DNA from: Erythrobacter sp. BLCC-B19
Lineage (GTDB): Bacteria > Pseudomonadota > Alphaproteobacteria > Sphingomonadales > Sphingomonadaceae
Length of the DNA stretch: 64,000 nt
Reading direction: 5' to 3'
Assembly: GCF_028621955.1 (NCBI RefSeq)
Contig: NZ_CP117516.1
Location: 1,262,001-1,326,000, forward strand
Shown: piece by piece, positions 3,991-43,109 of the stretch
Layout of the letters: each line of letters opens with the position of its first letter
Position numbering within the stretch: the stretch's first letter is position 1
The notes under the pieces: generated by a model
The model's database searches: none
What the model was told of the DNA's origin: nothing
Seen by the model: the letters and a program-made list of their open reading frames with translations, nothing else
Made by a program: the position numbers and the translations under genes

Positions 3991-4728
3991 ATGGCCACCA
4001 AGGATCAGCCCAAGCCGCTGATGCCCCATGCCACCGCGACCTGGCTGGTGGACAACACCGCATTGAGCTTCGAACAGATCGCCGAGTTCTGCGGCCTCCA
4101 CATCCTCGAAGTGCAGGCGATGGCCGATGATCTGGCCGGCAGCAAGTACACCGGCCGCGATCCCGTCCACTCGGGCGAGCTCACCCAGGCCGAGATCGAG
4201 AAGGGCCAGGCCGATCCGGCCTATGTGCTCAAGATGCACAAGGCGCCGGTCGAGGTGACCCGCACCAAGGGGCCGCGTTACACCCCCGTCTCGAAGCGTC
4301 AGGACAAGCCCGATGGCATCGCCTGGATCCTGCGCCACCACCCCGAGGTGTCGGACGCGCAGATTTCCAAGCTGATCGGCACGACTCGCAACACCATCGG
4401 CGCGATCCGTGACCGTTCGCACTGGAACATCCAGAACATCACGCCGAAGGATCCGGTGACGCTGGGCCTGTGTTCGCAGCGCGAACTCGACTCGATGGTC
4501 GCCAAGGCCGCCAAGCGCGCCGGGATCACCGAGGATGCGGACGCGCCTGCGGCACCGGTGCGCAATGATCGCGAAAAGCTGATCGAGGAACTGCGCGCCG
4601 AGCGTGACGCCCAGACCAAGGCCGCCAGCGAAGCCGCGCAGGAAGCCGAAGCCGAAGCCTGGCTCGCCCGCAAGCGCGAAGCCGAAGCCGCCGAAGAGAA
4701 GATCGACCCCGAGAGCGGGTTTATTTGA
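3991..4728 (+). CDS. trcR: cell-cycle transcriptional regulator TrcR (DUF1013)
   Basis: A 245-residue DUF1013 protein. In Caulobacter the member TrcR is a cell-cycle transcription factor, and the family is widespread in alphaproteobacteria. The conserved N-terminal region contains ATATWLVDNTALSFEQIA. The middle carries the helix-turn-helix-like segment ISKLIGTTRNTIGAIRDR (from residue 125). The C-terminus is a charged, Ala/Glu-rich, probably coiled tail. ATG 3991 is chosen because GGAG stands about eight bases upstream and the earlier in-frame sequence is hairpin DNA. It is flanked by the inverted repeat at 3775-3863 and by structured repeat copy A, which begins about nine bases after the stop. 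Confidence 0.93.
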   Translation: MATKDQPKPLMPHATATWLVDNTALSFEQIAEFCGLHILEVQAMADDLAGSKYTGRDPVHSGELTQAEIEKGQADPAYVLKMHKAPVEVTRTKGPRYTPVSKRQDKPDGIAWILRHHPEVSDAQISKLIGTTRNTIGAIRDRSHWNIQNITPKDPVTLGLCSQRELDSMVAKAAKRAGITEDADAPAAPVRNDREKLIEELRAERDAQTKAASEAAQEAEAEAWLARKREAEAAEEKIDPESGFI

Positions 4729-4736
4729 TGTTCTGA

Positions 4737-4844
4737 TTGCGGGGGCGCCTCCGCGCCCCCGTCCTCGGCGCCGTTTCAAGCCCTGCGGGCTTGAGCGCCT
4801 GCGGCTCGCGCGCGTGCGCTCGCGGCCCGTCCGTTGGCGGGCCG
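4737..4844 (+). repeat. structured GC-rich 3'-end element, copy A
   Basis: First of five related multi-hairpin elements in the window. Hairpin 1 is GGGGGCG/CGCCCCC around loop CCTCCG (4741-4760), followed by the fixed linker GTCCTCGGCG. Hairpin 2 is TCAAGCCC/GGGCTTGA (4776-4794), itself enclosed by GGCGC/GCGCC. The tail hairpin is CGGCCCG/CGGGCCG (4823-4844). The first 34 bases match copy B at 10975, and the whole head half aligns with the reverse complement of copy C. Its head lies 9 bp past the trcR stop and reads in the same direction as trcR. Confidence 0.85.
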
Positions 4845-10530: not shown

Positions 10531-10968
10531 ATGACCGAAGCCTTGATCGCCGCCCTGCCGCAGGGTGCCGTGCAAGCCGCCGCCACAACGGCGCAATCGC
10601 TGGCGCGCGCTGACATGAGCGCCGCTGCCTTGCACGACCTCGTGCTCGCCCAGCTTGATGATGATCAGGCGCAGGAGATCGTCTCGATCCCGCTCGAAGG
10701 CAAAAGCTCGATTGCCGATCACATGGTGATCGCGAGCGGGCGTTCGACCCGGCAGGTGGCGTCGATGGCGCAGAAGCTGGCGGAGAAGATCAAGCAGGCC
10801 GGCTACGGCCACGCCCGCGTCGAAGGCCTGCCGGCTGCCGACTGGGTGCTGATCGACGCAGGCGACGTGGTGATCCACCTGTTCCGCCCCGAAGTGCGCA
10901 GCTTCTACAACCTTGAACGGATGTGGAGCTTCGAGGGCAGCGAAACGTCGATGATGGGGCGCAACTAG
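10531..10968 (+). CDS. rsfS: ribosome silencing factor RsfS (Iojap)
   Basis: RsfS binds ribosomal protein uL14 and blocks joining of the 50S and 30S subunits under starvation. The 145-residue protein contains the family core KSSIADHMVIASGRSTRQV and LPAADWVLIDAGDVVIHLF, ending RSFYNLERMW. An Ala/Gln-rich tail of about 28 residues precedes the conserved domain. The start is unsure: ATG 10531 is used, but GGAG at 10513-10516 is better spaced for TTG 10525 in the same frame, and ATG 10615 (MSAAALHDLV) would begin right at the domain. It sits between nadD and rlmH, its usual place. Structured repeat copy B begins a few bases after the stop. Confidence 0.94.
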   Translation: MTEALIAALPQGAVQAAATTAQSLARADMSAAALHDLVLAQLDDDQAQEIVSIPLEGKSSIADHMVIASGRSTRQVASMAQKLAEKIKQAGYGHARVEGLPAADWVLIDAGDVVIHLFRPEVRSFYNLERMWSFEGSETSMMGRN

Positions 10969-10973
10969 TTTTC

Positions 10974-11119
10974 TTTGCGGGGGCGCCTCCGCGCCCCCGT
11001 CCTCGGCGAGTCCTTGTGTTCCGCAGCCCATCCGGGCTGCGAAATCCTCGCTCACGCGGCCTGAAGGCCGCATCGCTGCGGGCGGCCGGTCGGCCTTGCG
11101 GGCCTGCGGCCCGTTCCAG
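10974..11119 (+). repeat. structured GC-rich 3'-end element, copy B
   Basis: The most complete copy. Hairpin 1 is GGGGGCG/CGCCCCC with loop CCTCCG (10979-10998), then GTCCTCGGCG. Hairpin 2 is CGCAGCCC-ATCC-GGGCTGCG. After linker TCCTCGCTCA comes hairpin 3, GCGGCC-TGAA-GGCCGC (11056-11071), then a shared linker ending CCTTGCGG, tail hairpin CGGGCC-TGC-GGCCCG (11099-11113) and terminal GTTCCAG. Its head is about 6 bp past the rsfS stop and reads in the same direction; its tail ends 23 bp before the inferred rlmH start. The back half matches the reverse complement of copy D, with compensating stem changes. Confidence 0.88.
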
Positions 11120-11142: not shown

Positions 11143-11565
11143 ATCCTCCTCCACATCATCGCGCGCGGGAAGATTGGCCGGTCGCCGGAGGGCGAGCTGG
11201 TGGATCGTTATGCCAAGCGCATGACCTGGCCCTGCAAGATCACCGAATGGCCCGATACCGGTGCGGGCAAGGTGGCTGATGCGTTGACGCCATGCCGCAC
11301 CGTGCTGCTCGACGAGCGCGGCAAGGCGATGTCCTCGGAGGCTTTCGCGCAGCTACTCGGCAAGTGGCGCGATGACGGCGTGCGCGAGACGCGCTTCATG
11401 CTGGGCGCGGCCGATGGCCATTCCGATGCCGAGCGCGCGAGCGCCGACCTCCTCCTCGCCTTCGGGCCTGCCACCTGGCCGCACATGATGGCCCGCGCCA
11501 TGCTGATCGAGCAGCTCTACCGCGCCACCACAATCCTTGCAGGCCATCCCTATCATCGGGCATGA
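11143..11565 (+). CDS. rlmH: 23S rRNA (pseudouridine1915-N3)-methyltransferase; probable ATC start
   Basis: RlmH is a SPOUT methyltransferase that methylates pseudouridine 1915 of helix 69. The C-terminal knot is clear: [10 protein letters not shown] and the final [19 protein letters not shown]. The family N-terminus, a hydrophobic strand followed by a Gly-Lys, is encoded as [20 protein letters not shown] directly upstream of GTG 11200. In this frame a TGA lies at 11137-11139, and no ATG, GTG or TTG occurs between it and GTG 11200. Initiation at GTG 11200 would delete the first strand. I therefore infer initiation at ATC 11143, giving 140 residues, or a mutated ATG. The stop overlaps the region leading into envC. 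Confidence 0.85.
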
Positions 11566-15330: not shown

Positions 15331-15438
15331 CGGTCGCGCAGCGACCGCGAGGCCACGCGGCCGAGCCGCAGGCGCTCAAGCCCGAAGGGCTTGAAACAGC
15401 GCCGAGGACGTGCCCGCGGAGGCGGGCACGCAAACAAA
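15331..15438 (-). repeat. structured GC-rich 3'-end element, copy C
   Basis: Read on the minus strand, the head GTTTGC abuts (7 bp) the stop of the nucleotide-sugar dehydrogenase gene. Hairpin 1 is GTGCCCG/CGGGCAC (15410-15429) around the same CCTCCG loop as copies A and B, but every stem pair differs from theirs. The linker GTCCTCGGCGC is followed by hairpin 2, TCAAGCCC/GGGCTTGA (15376-15394), identical in stem to copy A, then GCGCCTGCGGCTCG. The tail hairpin is CGGTCGC/GCGACCG (15331-15347), matching copy D. Confidence 0.85.
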
Positions 15439-15445
15439 GGCCCCC

Positions 15446-16735
15446 TCACAAACTCCAGTAAACCAGTTCCTCGGGCAGTCCTTCGCGGCTTAGCGCGCTC
15501 TTCACGTCCACCAGCACGCCGCCTTCGCGCACCCTTGCGACCAGATCGGCAGGATTGGCGATATAGGCCGCGTGGTTCACCGCCAGCACCAGCGCGTCGA
15601 GCTGGGTCATGTCTTCGGCGGGGCTGAGCGTGATGCCATATTCGTGGCTCGCCGCCGCCGGGTCGGCCAACGGGTCGCTCACCAGCGCGTCAATCGCATA
15701 TTCGCGCAGTTCGGCAAGGATATCGGGCACCTTGGAATTGCGGATATCGGGCACGTCCTGCTTGAAGGTCAGGCCCATCACGCCGACCCGCGCGCGGCAC
15801 GGGGAAACCCCGTTCGCGATCAGCAGCTTGACCACCTTCTGCGCGATTTCACGTCCCATGCTGTCATTGATCCGCCGCCCGGCAAGGATCACCTCGGGTC
15901 GGTAGCCGAGCTTCTCTGCCGCTGCCGTCAGATAAAAGGGATCGACCCCGATGCAGTGCCCGCCGACAAGGCCGGGGGTGAAGGGCAGGAAGTTCCACTT
16001 CGTGCCCGCCGCCGCCAGCACATCGCGCGTCGCCAGCCCCATGCGGTCGAAGATCAGCGCAATCTCGTTCATCAGCGCGATGTTGAGATCGCGCTGGGTG
16101 TTCTCGATCACCTTGGCGGCTTCGGCGACCTTGATCGAGGGCGCCTCGTGCAGCCCGGCATCGACAATCGCGCCATAGATGCGCCGCATCCGGGCGAGCG
16201 CTGTGGGGCTGTCGGCGGCTATGATCTTGGTGATGGTCTCGAGCCGGTGAACCCTGTCGCCGGGGTTGATGCGTTCCGGGCTGTAGCCGAGCGCGAAGTC
16301 GCGGCCCTGCTCCAGCCCCGAGGCGGCGGCGAGCCAGGGGCCGCAGATCTCCTCGGTCACGCCGGGGAAGACGGTCGATTCGAACACCACCAGAGCGCCG
16401 CGTTTCAGGCGCGGGCCGATGGCCGAGCAGGCGCGCTCCAGCGGGGTCAGGTCGGGACGGCGCTCTTCGGTGATGGGGGTGGGCACGGTGACGATGATGA
16501 CATCCGCGTCTTCCAGCACTGCCGGATCATCGCTGACGGCCAGCCCGCATGACGCCAGCCGATCATCGGGGATTTCCTGCGTCGTATCATGGCCCGCCCG
16601 CAAGGCGGCAATGCGCTGCGCCGAGATGTCGAAGCCCGCGACGCGCACGCCCTGTCCGCCCAGTCGCTCCGCCAGAGCCACGGCAACGGGCAGGCCGACA
16701 TAGCCCAAGCCCACGACTGCGATCATTCCGTCCAT
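15446..16735 (-). CDS. nucleotide sugar dehydrogenase (UDP-GlcNAc/GlcNAcA C6-dehydrogenase type)
   Basis: A UDP-sugar 6-dehydrogenase of 429 residues that oxidises C6 of a nucleotide sugar to the uronate with two NAD+. The N-terminal Rossmann motif is VVGLGYVGLPVAVAL and the catalytic cysteine is in GGHCIGVDPF (Cys261). Sequence flavour (YSPERINPGD, GLTFKQDVPDIRNSK) resembles the TviB/WbpA branch acting on UDP-N-acetyl sugars more than UDP-glucose dehydrogenase. With the uronate-type epimerase at 17443 it forms half of a capsule or exopolysaccharide precursor pathway; no glycosyltransferase or export genes are nearby. About 147 bp of spacer separates it from a divergent secreted-protein gene. 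Confidence 0.9.
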   Translation of the reverse strand: MDGMIAVVGLGYVGLPVAVALAERLGGQGVRVAGFDISAQRIAALRAGHDTTQEIPDDRLASCGLAVSDDPAVLEDADVIIVTVPTPITEERRPDLTPLERACSAIGPRLKRGALVVFESTVFPGVTEEICGPWLAAASGLEQGRDFALGYSPERINPGDRVHRLETITKIIAADSPTALARMRRIYGAIVDAGLHEAPSIKVAEAAKVIENTQRDLNIALMNEIALIFDRMGLATRDVLAAAGTKWNFLPFTPGLVGGHCIGVDPFYLTAAAEKLGYRPEVILAGRRINDSMGREIAQKVVKLLIANGVSPCRARVGVMGLTFKQDVPDIRNSKVPDILAELREYAIDALVSDPLADPAAASHEYGITLSPAEDMTQLDALVLAVNHAAYIANPADLVARVREGGVLVDVKSALSREGLPEELVYWSL

Positions 16736-23190: not shown

Positions 23191-23303
23191 GGAAACGGAC
23201 CCGCAGGGTCCGCAAGGCCGCCAAGGCTTTCTGGCGCCCGCCCGCAGCGGGCGCGGCTTGCTGCGCGTCTAGCGAGGACCGCGCGCCGGATGGCGTGCGG
23301 AAA
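23191..23303 (-). repeat. structured GC-rich 3'-end element, copy E
   Basis: Read on the minus strand, the head starts within 5 bp of the serine-hydrolase stop. Hairpin 1 pairs 23279-23287 with 23292-23300 around GGAT, including a G-T pair. The linker TCCTCGCT is shared with copies B and D. The middle is diverged but keeps CGCTGCGGGCGG and GGCGGCCTTGCGG. The tail hairpin is CGGACCC-GCA-GGGTCCG (23196-23212), then terminal GTTTCC. It lies between convergent genes. Confidence 0.78.
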
Positions 23304-23304
23304 C

Positions 23305-24450
23305 CTAAGATTCCGGATAGAGCTCCAGCACATCGGCGGCCTGTTGCAGCATCGGCGGGCGCTCGGTGCTGTCGGAATGGCCGAGACGCACCAGCGTTAC
23401 CTGCTGGGTGGGCGAGACCAGCACATATTGTCCCATGTGGCCGATCAGGCTGAACAGGCTCTTGGGTGCGCGGTCGGGGAACAGCGGGTGCTCGCCCGCT
23501 GGCGTGCCGGGGATCGGGCGGTTGAGCCAGGTCTGGAAGCCGTAATGCGGACTGGCGGGTGAGGGGGTCACCATCGCCTCGACCCAGCGCTGCGGCACCA
23601 GTTGCTCCCCGCCCGGCGCGCGGCCCTTGCGCCGCAGGAATTCGCCCAGCTTCGCCCAGTCGCGCGCGGTCGCGTGCATCAGGCTGCCGCCGATCAGCGT
23701 GCCGCTTGCATCGAATTCGGGCACCATGCTTGTCATGCCGAGTGGGCCGAACAGGCGCTGTTGCAGATAATCCGCCACCGCCTTGCGCCGCACCTCGGGC
23801 TTGGTGCTCGCCGTCAGCGCGCGGGCCGCGATGTCGGCGAGGATCACGCTGGTGTTGCTCGAATATTCGAACTGCTTGCCCGGCTCGGCCTCGAGCGGCT
23901 GCTCCTCGGCCCACTTGGCCATGTTGTCGCGCCCGTCGAGGAACAGCATCCGCACCTCGGCCGATTCGTAAGGCGGATCACCAGCCTCGGTGTGTCTCAA
24001 CCCGCTCCGCATCTGGAGCAGGTGGCGCAGGGTGATTTCCGCGCGCGGATCGCCGGGGCGTTGCCACTGCGGGACAGGGGCCGGCGCATCGAGCGCGAGC
24101 AGGCCGTCTGACACCAGCATCCCGATCAATACGCCCGTCACCGTCTTGGCCATCGACCAGCTGATGAAGCGCGTGTCCTTCGAATAGCCGGGGCCATAGC
24201 GCTCGGCGGCCAGCTTGCCGCCTGCCATCACCACCACTGCGCGGGTCTCCCCCAGTCCCTTCTGGGTGAACAGATCGTCGATTTCGCGCGCGAGCTGATC
24301 TTTCGGTGCCCCTGCATCCTTGGTGACGGCCGCCAGCGCTTCGGGCGAAAGCGGTGCGGCGGCAGGGGTGGCCGAGCCGCAGGCGGCGAGCATCAGCAGG
24401 GCTGGCGCGAGCAAGGCTGCGCGGTTAAGGACGGCGGCGTTGAGGGTCAT
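23305..24450 (-). CDS. serine hydrolase, class C beta-lactamase-like lipoprotein
   Basis: A 381-residue beta-lactamase/transpeptidase-like protein with a lipoprotein signal ending LLMLAAC (Cys24), so it is probably anchored in the envelope. The catalytic SxxK is SMAK (Ser99, Lys102) in ISWSMAKTVTG; EYSSNTS takes the place of the YxN motif. Members include esterases and D-amino-acid peptidases as well as beta-lactamases, and nothing here singles out antibiotic resistance. The start at ATG 24450 opens the signal peptide. It diverges from a small cysteine-rich membrane protein with only 35 bp between start codons, so their promoters must overlap or lie inside the genes. Confidence 0.87.
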   Translation of the reverse strand: MTLNAAVLNRAALLAPALLMLAACGSATPAAAPLSPEALAAVTKDAGAPKDQLAREIDDLFTQKGLGETRAVVVMAGGKLAAERYGPGYSKDTRFISWSMAKTVTGVLIGMLVSDGLLALDAPAPVPQWQRPGDPRAEITLRHLLQMRSGLRHTEAGDPPYESAEVRMLFLDGRDNMAKWAEEQPLEAEPGKQFEYSSNTSVILADIAARALTASTKPEVRRKAVADYLQQRLFGPLGMTSMVPEFDASGTLIGGSLMHATARDWAKLGEFLRRKGRAPGGEQLVPQRWVEAMVTPSPASPHYGFQTWLNRPIPGTPAGEHPLFPDRAPKSLFSLIGHMGQYVLVSPTQQVTLVRLGHSDSTERPPMLQQAADVLELYPES

Positions 24451-42590: not shown

Positions 42591-42695
42591 CTGGAACCGG
42601 TCGCGTAGCGACCGCAAGGCCGACCGGCCGCCCGCAGCGACGCGACCTTCAGGTCGCATGAGCGAGGAAATGGCGGGCCGGAGGGCCCGCGCAAA
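42591..42695 (-). repeat. structured GC-rich 3'-end element, copy D
   Basis: On the minus strand the head TTTGC touches the stop codon of the DUF3035 gene. Hairpin 1 is GCGGGCC-CTCC-GGCCCGC (42673-42690), linker TTTCCTCGCTCA, hairpin GCGACC-TGAA-GGTCGC (42642-42657), then a shared linker, and tail hairpin CGGTCGC-TAC-GCGACCG (42598-42614) with terminal GTTCCAG. Relative to copy B, stem pairs differ in a compensating way while loops and linkers are the same. Confidence 0.88.
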
Positions 42696-43109
42696 TCAAG
42701 AAGGAATAACCGTGCTCGCCGACTGGCCGTCACCTTCGGGCGCTGCGACGATGTCGCGGGTGACGCGGCCCTTGGCGACGGTGTTGGTGCCGGTGTCGCC
42801 GACCTGCGAACGGATGCTCGGATCGGCGCGACCGGCGCGGTCGAGCACGCTGGTTTCGACCTTGCTGCGCGGCGCCGGGCCGCCGAACAGCGCATCAAGC
42901 GCCTGTTCCGAGGCCGTGCCTTCGGCCGGGCGCGGGGCACCGGGGGCGGGCGGGGTCAGGGTGAAATCGGGCGGCACCACCAGCGGCGCCTGACGCTGCA
43001 CCGCGAATTCATCGGGACGTTCACGGTTGAACACCCCGCCATCGCCGCCGCAACCGGCCAGCGTCGCCCCGGCGGCGGTCAGCACGATCAGGCTCGCAAA
43101 CTTACGCAT
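42696..43109 (-). CDS. DUF3035 lipoprotein
   Basis: A 137-residue lipoprotein with signal MRKFASLIVLTAAGATLAGC (lipobox LAGC). The mature part is proline- and alanine-rich, with the DUF3035 start PDEFAVQRQAPLVVPPDFTL, and has little predicted fold. Function unknown. The gene overlaps the lspA stop by eight bases; lspA encodes the signal peptidase that would mature this very lipoprotein. The last codon abuts structured repeat copy D. Confidence 0.85.
   Translation of the reverse strand: MRKFASLIVLTAAGATLAGCGGDGGVFNRERPDEFAVQRQAPLVVPPDFTLTPPAPGAPRPAEGTASEQALDALFGGPAPRSKVETSVLDRAGRADPSIRSQVGDTGTNTVAKGRVTRDIVAAPEGDGQSASTVIPS

Follow-up and report, generated by a model that had tools for sequence, protein, structure and literature searches.

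Five intergenic copies of a repeat are present in a 64,000-nucleotide stretch of DNA from Erythrobacter sp. BLCC-B19 (the window, meaning the whole stretch analyzed). They appear to belong to a new REP-like, strongly polar family of gene-end repeats of Erythrobacter and related sphingomonads, the stems of which would be renewed at the DNA level and which would have a polar role at gene boundaries. We give this reading a probability of about 45%. Placement at gene ends, orientation, the sharing of sites between species, and turnover of the letters of the first stem with retention of pairing were all observed directly. In mechanistic terms, the element would delimit a gene or transcription unit on its 3' side, mostly just behind the stop codon; part of the copies would mark a boundary behind an intrinsic terminator and single copies would do so behind an RNase P RNA or tRNA gene. 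With sharp polarity, many sites that are orthologous across the genus, and fast turnover of the first stem, base-pair statistics can help to separate RNA action from DNA maintenance. Furthermore, comparison of sister strains that carry the family would provide a means of following how palindromic repeats are copied when no transposase is known, and the family is relevant to gene-end annotation in sphingomonads.

Architecture of the element and its copies in the window

Read in element orientation, all copies share a T-rich head, a first hairpin (P1), a TCCTCG linker, P2, TGCGG, P3, TTGCGG or TCGCGG, and P4. These four hairpins, joined by fixed linkers, form a mosaic that comes in two types, A and B, which can replace each other; a unit with four helices is about 110 bp long. 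The loop of P1 is CTCC or ATCC in the window copies and was CTCC in 137 and ATCC in 50 of a larger set of 218 heads. P3 has 4 bp and a loop of GGTC or GCGT in most copies and is larger in the copy designated e4. P1 is followed by TCCTC, either directly or after a short spacer, and P4 is followed by a mixed tail, often with CAGCGC. In type A, P1 began with C-G and G-C pairs in 10 of 10 aligned rows. A reading of the window from sequence alone had proposed that five stretches share a layout, and this was confirmed for all five by direct reading and by covariance models. The GTTCC end that it assigned to every copy was present in e2 and e5, was GTTTCC in e4, and was lacking in e1 and e3. A few copies had a third head type (GCCTCAAGCGCCGGC, a hairpin, and TTGGCTTTCCTCGCT or similar) instead of a type-A or type-B head (locus L014 at about 1450 to 1500, L016 at about 1466, L030 at about 1450, and L110 at about 1390).

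Two copies lie on the plus strand. Copy e1 (4729 to 4844, type A) follows trcR, whose TGA stop codon ends at 4728, and its helices are at 4740 to 4761 (P1), 4767 to 4799 (P2), 4808 to 4819 (P3), and 4823 to 4844 (P4). Copy e2 (10969 to 11119) follows rsfS, whose TAG stop codon ends at 10968, and is a composite in which a type-A head (P1a, 10978 to 10999) precedes a complete type-B element (P1b, 11022 to 11041; P2, 11056 to 11071; P3, 11084 to 11095; P4, 11099 to 11113). The other three copies are on the minus strand, as are the genes that they follow. Copy e3 (15331 to 15445) is of type A and lies behind a nucleotide-sugar dehydrogenase gene (15446 to 16735), with P1 at 15409 to 15430, P2 at 15371 to 15403, P3 at 15351 to 15362, and P4 at 15331 to 15347. 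Copy e4 (23191 to 23304), a type-B variant with an enlarged P3, lies behind a gene for a beta-lactamase-family serine hydrolase (23305 to 24450) and has helices at 23279 to 23300 (P1), 23251 to 23266 (P2), 23216 to 23239 (P3), and 23196 to 23212 (P4). Copy e5 (42591 to 42695), of type B, lies behind a DUF3035 gene (42696 to 43109), with P1 at 42673 to 42690, P2 at 42642 to 42657, P3 at 42618 to 42629, and P4 at 42598 to 42614. The identities of the upstream genes given from sequence alone agreed with the Pfam assignments (TrcR, RsfS, UDP-glucose/GDP-mannose dehydrogenase, beta-lactamase-family [serine hydrolase], and DUF3035). The head was likewise found just behind the stop codon of a co-oriented gene in all five cases, with stop-to-model-start distances for e1 to e5 of 5, 3, 9, 0, and -1 nt. 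Beyond e2, rlmH has an apparent ATC start (window positions 11143 to 11145), as GCC ATC is all that separates the conserved LLHIIARGK from an in-frame stop. In related loci this position was read by eye as ATC, ATT, TTG, or ATG, and a near-cognate start may be usual at rlmH.

Two covariance models, R1 and R2, were each built on ten copies, of type A and type B, respectively. Their training sets included four of the window copies but not e4. Scanning of the window with R1 recovered all five copies, while R2 recovered four and missed e1. As an untrained copy, e4 scored E values of 2.7e-9 (R2) and 5.6e-4 (R1). No sixth credible copy was detected in the window by either model, the next match having an E value of 0.019, which was disbelieved. 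A repeat finder with its default seed detected no inverted pairs in two of the stretches. Folding was better than in dinucleotide shuffles for four of the five window copies (z scores of -2.86, -3.37, -5.01, and -3.00) and no better for e4 (z score of -0.84).

Distribution and placement at gene ends

A scan of the genome and its relatives with covariance models, which had been proposed from the sequence alone, detected 57 places in the host genome (3.6 Mb, a single contig, 66% G+C) and matches in 61/61 genomes of the genus sample with R2. The 57 places were obtained by merging R1 and R2 matches (30 and 48 places, respectively, at E values up to 1) with DNA searches; the last few are weak, indicating about 50 copies. 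The best genome matches reached an E value of 1e-22, training copies included. With strict filters, R1 matched 24 of 25 genomes of the genus, the host genome included, and 0 of 16 genomes from other families of the order. R2 matches were present in at least 55 of 199 genomes of the family sample, belonging to at least 33 of 96 genera, and five or more were present in at least 26 of the 199; these family counts are lower bounds, with 19 candidates scored per genome. Among the best 80 of 520 matches, the nearest relatives of the RsfS protein came from metagenome-assembled genomes and strains labelled Sphingomonadales, Porphyrobacter, Erythrobacter, or Erythrobacteraceae. The sequence-only reading knew of no named family, and no Rfam match to the element was obtained at the gathering score for the window or for 20 element loci, the only matches beside elements being tRNA, RNase P, 6S, and the cobalamin riboswitch. 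None of the literature titles retrieved described the family, in a search that was thin on subscription journals and so does not prove absence from print.

Gene calls around the copies were made with a simple codon-usage caller trained on the window. By these automatic calls, 44 of the 57 places in the host genome lay behind a co-oriented gene, 12 were opposed, and 1 was without a neighbor. At least one of the 12 opposed places is a caller error, as a 498-codon co-oriented open reading frame ends 1 nt before the head; at three more, shorter co-oriented frames that may be genes end 15 to 23 nt before the head. The larger set of 218 heads (41 from the host genome, 146 from the genus, 11 from rsfS loci, and 20 from the family) was filtered by dropping heads without TCCTC and the downstream core motif, heads with more than two mismatches in P1, and exact duplicates. 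Copies from outside the host genome were mostly top-scoring model matches, which biases the frequencies of the types and somewhat inflates the clustering of orthologs. Co-orientation with the upstream gene was observed for 187 of 217 heads, with 30 against the rule and 1 further head lacking a called neighbor; the null expectation, derived from the 24 intergenic regions of the window that are 100 bp or longer, was 0.39. Between tandem genes, 91 heads were in the sense orientation and 20 were reversed (P = 5e-12). Converging genes flanked 94 heads and diverging genes 7, the remainder being without one neighbor. The first hairpin began within 20 nt of the stop codon in 130 of 187 co-oriented heads versus 3 of 30 reversed heads. 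These results indicated that the gene-end rule, seen without exception in the window, is strong both genome-wide and more widely but is not absolute. A preference for 3' ends and for orientation was present genome-wide, rather than being absent as a refutation of the sequence-only reading would have it.

Two converging gene pairs of the host genome carried two facing elements, one for each gene (1662859+/1663085- and 1924375+/1924510-). Some facing pairs between tandem genes had one member against the rule (320317+/320447- and 2704015+/2704193-), and in the facing pair 514104+/514235- the plus-strand member was against the rule. Single copies were found about 10 nt behind rnpB and tRNA-Lys in the same direction, and others were farther behind tRNA-Ala and 6S, also in the same direction. 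The stop codon often lay inside the T/G-rich head; at distances of 3 to 6 nt, TAA was used in 2 of 60 cases versus 67 of 199 background genes (Fisher, P = 2.7e-7). An orientation forced by a stop codon supplied by the head was considered and rejected: the overlap is real, but first-stop distances are alike from both ends of the element, and hence the stop codon alone does not explain the polarity. A role as a replication-strand marker was rejected as well, as the chromosome halves, with the origin assumed to be near the contig start, showed no bias (16+/17- and 9+/11-; 53 of 57 places).

Sites were shared between species. Among elements located no more than 60 nt from a co-oriented gene, 111 of 145 belonged to 31 ortholog clusters, and the count was 101 of 135 when the rsfS loci were excluded. 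The exact distance from the stop codon to P1 was kept in 49% of 290 ortholog pairs versus 7% of random pairs, a result dominated by rsfS (108 of 171 pairs, versus 33 of 119 in the other clusters). Element type was the same in 180 of the 290 pairs; nine second heads of composites were left out of the ortholog counts. In 28 of the 80 rsfS loci, the rsfS-rlmH site was read by eye, and depending on the species it held an element of type A or type B, both types together, an inverted element, a facing pair, or no element. Erythrobacter cryptus (L244) had no element at rsfS.

Stem turnover, pairing statistics, and alternative readings

Comparison of the host rsfS site with that of locus L237 showed the same linkers and a largely identical B part, but the P1 stem of the A head differed in sequence on both arms. 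Among A-A ortholog pairs, P1 differed at a mean of 2.97 of 9 bp, compared with 3.37 for random pairs, and the values were 3.31 at rsfS and 2.42 elsewhere. The differing pairs were Watson-Crick on both sides in 387 of 439 cases, and outside rsfS the P1 stems were identical in 6 of 57 ortholog pairs. Turnover of P1 is fast, being about complete at rsfS and less so elsewhere. Covariation was also evident within ten aligned copies, with a both-sided change in 20 of 33 pairs (0 of 500 shuffles), and by four of five measures it was stronger than in any of the 500 shuffles. By itself, covariation is silent on which molecule keeps the pairing.

The noncanonical pairs were then informative. The 1,858 pairs of P1 included 6 G-U and 30 A-C or C-A, whereas the 396 pairs of 45 terminator-like hairpins from the same loci included 23 G-U and 5 A-C or C-A (Fisher, P = 1.7e-7 by copies and 2.5e-5 by distinct stems). 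Removal of 9 of the 218 heads that were seemingly out of register, with odd loops, left 3 G-U and 26 A-C among 1,784 pairs, or 3 and 17 by distinct stems. Selection at the level of the transcript should favor G-U, as seen in the terminators, and the P1 counts thus argue against pairing in the sense RNA as the force that keeps P1. P4 had the opposite pattern, with 23 G-U versus 5 A-C or C-A copies (11 versus 5 distinct), mostly from one recurrent stem class, while P2 and P3 had too few such cases. Over all helices there were 20 G-U versus 29 A-C distinct cases, which differs from the terminators (P = 7e-4). As P4 is terminator-like, the DNA-level argument rests on P1 and leaves room for an RNA role; the 3'-untranslated-region (3'-UTR) RNA structure that had been read from the sequence is weakened by the first helix and kept alive by the last. 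The A-C excess was rejected as proof of pairing on the noncoding strand, as one stem class (CGCACGCC/GGCGCGCG) supplied 10 of 27 A-C copies and P4 disagreed.

The element itself does not have the build of an intrinsic terminator, and the Rho-independent end, one of the roles proposed from the sequence, is not supported: no T tract stands behind its hairpins, the T-rich stretch instead preceding P1, and part of the far copies follow a ready-made terminator. Co-oriented heads at distances above 60 nt from the stop codon numbered 34, and 16 of them directly followed a terminator-like hairpin and T tract, compared with 24 of 8,600 random positions. About four of these 16 hairpins resemble parts of neighboring elements and six resemble one terminator recurring in several species, so there are fewer independent terminator cases. 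Use of the element as a terminator substitute was rejected, as the frequency of terminator-like sites was no different past the element (7 of 129) from that behind control genes (19 of 323). The control, itself a pattern scan, was restricted to genes that had a called stop and at least 100 nt following it. In locus L039, a strong ribosome-binding site, very short open frames, and a strong terminator were observed upstream of the element on the minus strand, and this unit may encode a small RNA or a peptide. Its GACGG terminator loop recurs in terminators ahead of the elements of L149, L152, L168, L207, and L223.

The terminator results bear directly on whether the element acts as a 3'-UTR RNA, with transcribed hairpins that would protect Rho-dependent transcript ends from 3'-to-5' exonucleases or would affect ribosomes during termination, as is reported for E. 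coli REPs close to stop codons. This reading is possible but less likely than the preferred one. Intrinsic terminators are rare in these loci (the 19 of 323 control genes), which makes Rho-dependent ends in need of protection plausible, and PMC12306157 reports that REPs within 15 nt of stop codons stall ribosomes. Strong sense orientation, closeness to stop codons, folding better than shuffles in four of five window copies, covariation, and the G-U excess in P4 all agree with an RNA. The near absence of G-U and greater number of A-C pairs in P1 do not, and little RNA would be expected at the 16 far heads just behind a terminator-like hairpin and T tract, some of which are not independent. Copies behind rnpB and tRNA genes cannot act on ribosomes, and it can be reasoned that perfect hairpins would stop exonucleases in both orientations. 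Insertion of a selfish miniature element at the 3' ends of genes, with its orientation reflecting the survivors of selection (for example, through a T-rich head overlapping the stop codon), seems unlikely. Many copies per genome, mosaic types, and the frequent location of the stop in the head, with its TAA deficit, fit such an origin; the occurrence of sites common to several species (the 101 of 135 non-rsfS elements, in a sample favoring high-scoring copies), the lack of a Y1 transposase in the host genome, and a polarity unexplained by the stop codon alone speak against it. Chance palindromes or a run of ordinary terminators are already refuted. A G+C content of 66% makes hairpins common and e4 folds no better than shuffles, but the strength of the genome matches (training copies included), the absence of R1 matches from 16 genomes of other families of the order, the shared linkers, and the covariation above shuffles are incompatible with chance.

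The preferred reading, a polar repeat renewed at the DNA level, would have stems replaced as whole hairpins via exchange between copies and palindrome correction, and intermediates with one changed arm would consequently be rare. Its least certain part is that the element would be kept for a polar action at the gene boundary, most likely at the level of DNA or transcription elongation; candidate roles are a barrier to read-through or a site for a DNA-binding protein, rather than a classical mRNA-stabilizing stem. Several observations count against this reading. P4 has an ordinary G-U excess, binding to duplex DNA alone fails to explain the conserved loops or the polarity, and orthologous P1 stems outside rsfS are somewhat more alike than random (2.42 versus 3.37 of 9). 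In addition, 30 of 217 heads and one member of some facing pairs run against the orientation rule, and neither a Y1 transposase nor an integron integrase that could copy the element scored above the cutoff in the host genome. A more far-reaching version, which we regard as improbable, is a chromosomal system that inherits place, polarity, and folding but largely not letters. Hairpins would be exchanged like cassettes among dozens of gene ends, pairing would be kept by palindrome repair at the DNA level, and each end would keep its own element for a polar boundary function. Repair in such a system might take place on the noncoding strand, on which P1 has G-T mismatches in place of A-C.

Comparison with known repeat systems

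Integron attC sites lie behind the stop codon of a gene in a fixed orientation, keep their structure while their letters vary, and fold on the bottom strand. The element resembles them in its place after the stop, its fixed orientation, and its conserved structure with varying letters, and differs in having dispersed copies and four separate hairpins. No match to the integron integrase TIGR02249 exceeded the cutoff in the host genome, and four weak partial matches in two open frames were taken for Xer-like recombinases; identity with attC was accordingly rejected. RIME and BOX are intergenic mosaics of modules able to fold, and the element is similar in this respect by description rather than sequence; to our knowledge, neither a polar gene-end rule nor stem turnover has been described for them.

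PMC12306157 still describes the roles of REP-like repeats as unclear, some 40 years after these repeats became known, and reports short palindromes with many copies, part of them near stop codons. Gene conversion appears as a proposed route for REPs in the title of a 1988 review in its reference list. A table in the same paper counts palindromes in E. cryptus, and the present element is unnamed in the parts covered. A RAYT-mobilized (GTAG) REP was rejected, as the host genome had no match to the Y1 transposase PF01797 above the cutoff in a search whose control was positive in 5 of 14. Neither this transposase nor an integron integrase is therefore the mover here. The element shares several features with the CGTC REPs, which are reported across alphaproteobacteria, including sphingomonads (Di Nocera 2013, PMC3733652). 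As described there, REPs are units of 20 to 40 bp that lie mostly downstream of genes; the CGTC REPs have stems of 8 to 9 bp, loops of 4 to 5 nt, and no dedicated transposase and occur mostly as head-to-head dimers, and their stem positions 1 and 2 are almost invariably complementary A-T. Type A does have CGTC after P1 (..CG|TCCTCG), but membership was ruled out by the C-G and G-C pairs at the start of P1 and by the four-helix unit in place of a single hairpin. In locus L055, the element is adjoined by a lone hairpin repeat (CCCCGTGTCAAGCACGGGG) that lies beside TGACGG (CGTCA when read on the opposite strand) and resembles the published CGTC REPs.

The sequence-only comparison with REP/BIME sequences in regard to place was apt, as this is a real polar repeat family tied to gene 3' ends. 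REP/BIME sequences are mosaic in build, and the binding of gyrase at BIMEs is a precedent for a DNA-binding protein at such repeats. Short palindromes, many copies, proximity to stop codons, and mosaic build are common to both, and in the broad sense of many intergenic palindromic copies, mostly downstream of genes, the element is of the REP/BIME kind. It is set apart, by description rather than by sequence, in having four helices in a fixed order joined by fixed linkers, a strong polarity relative to the gene, and stems whose letters are largely free.
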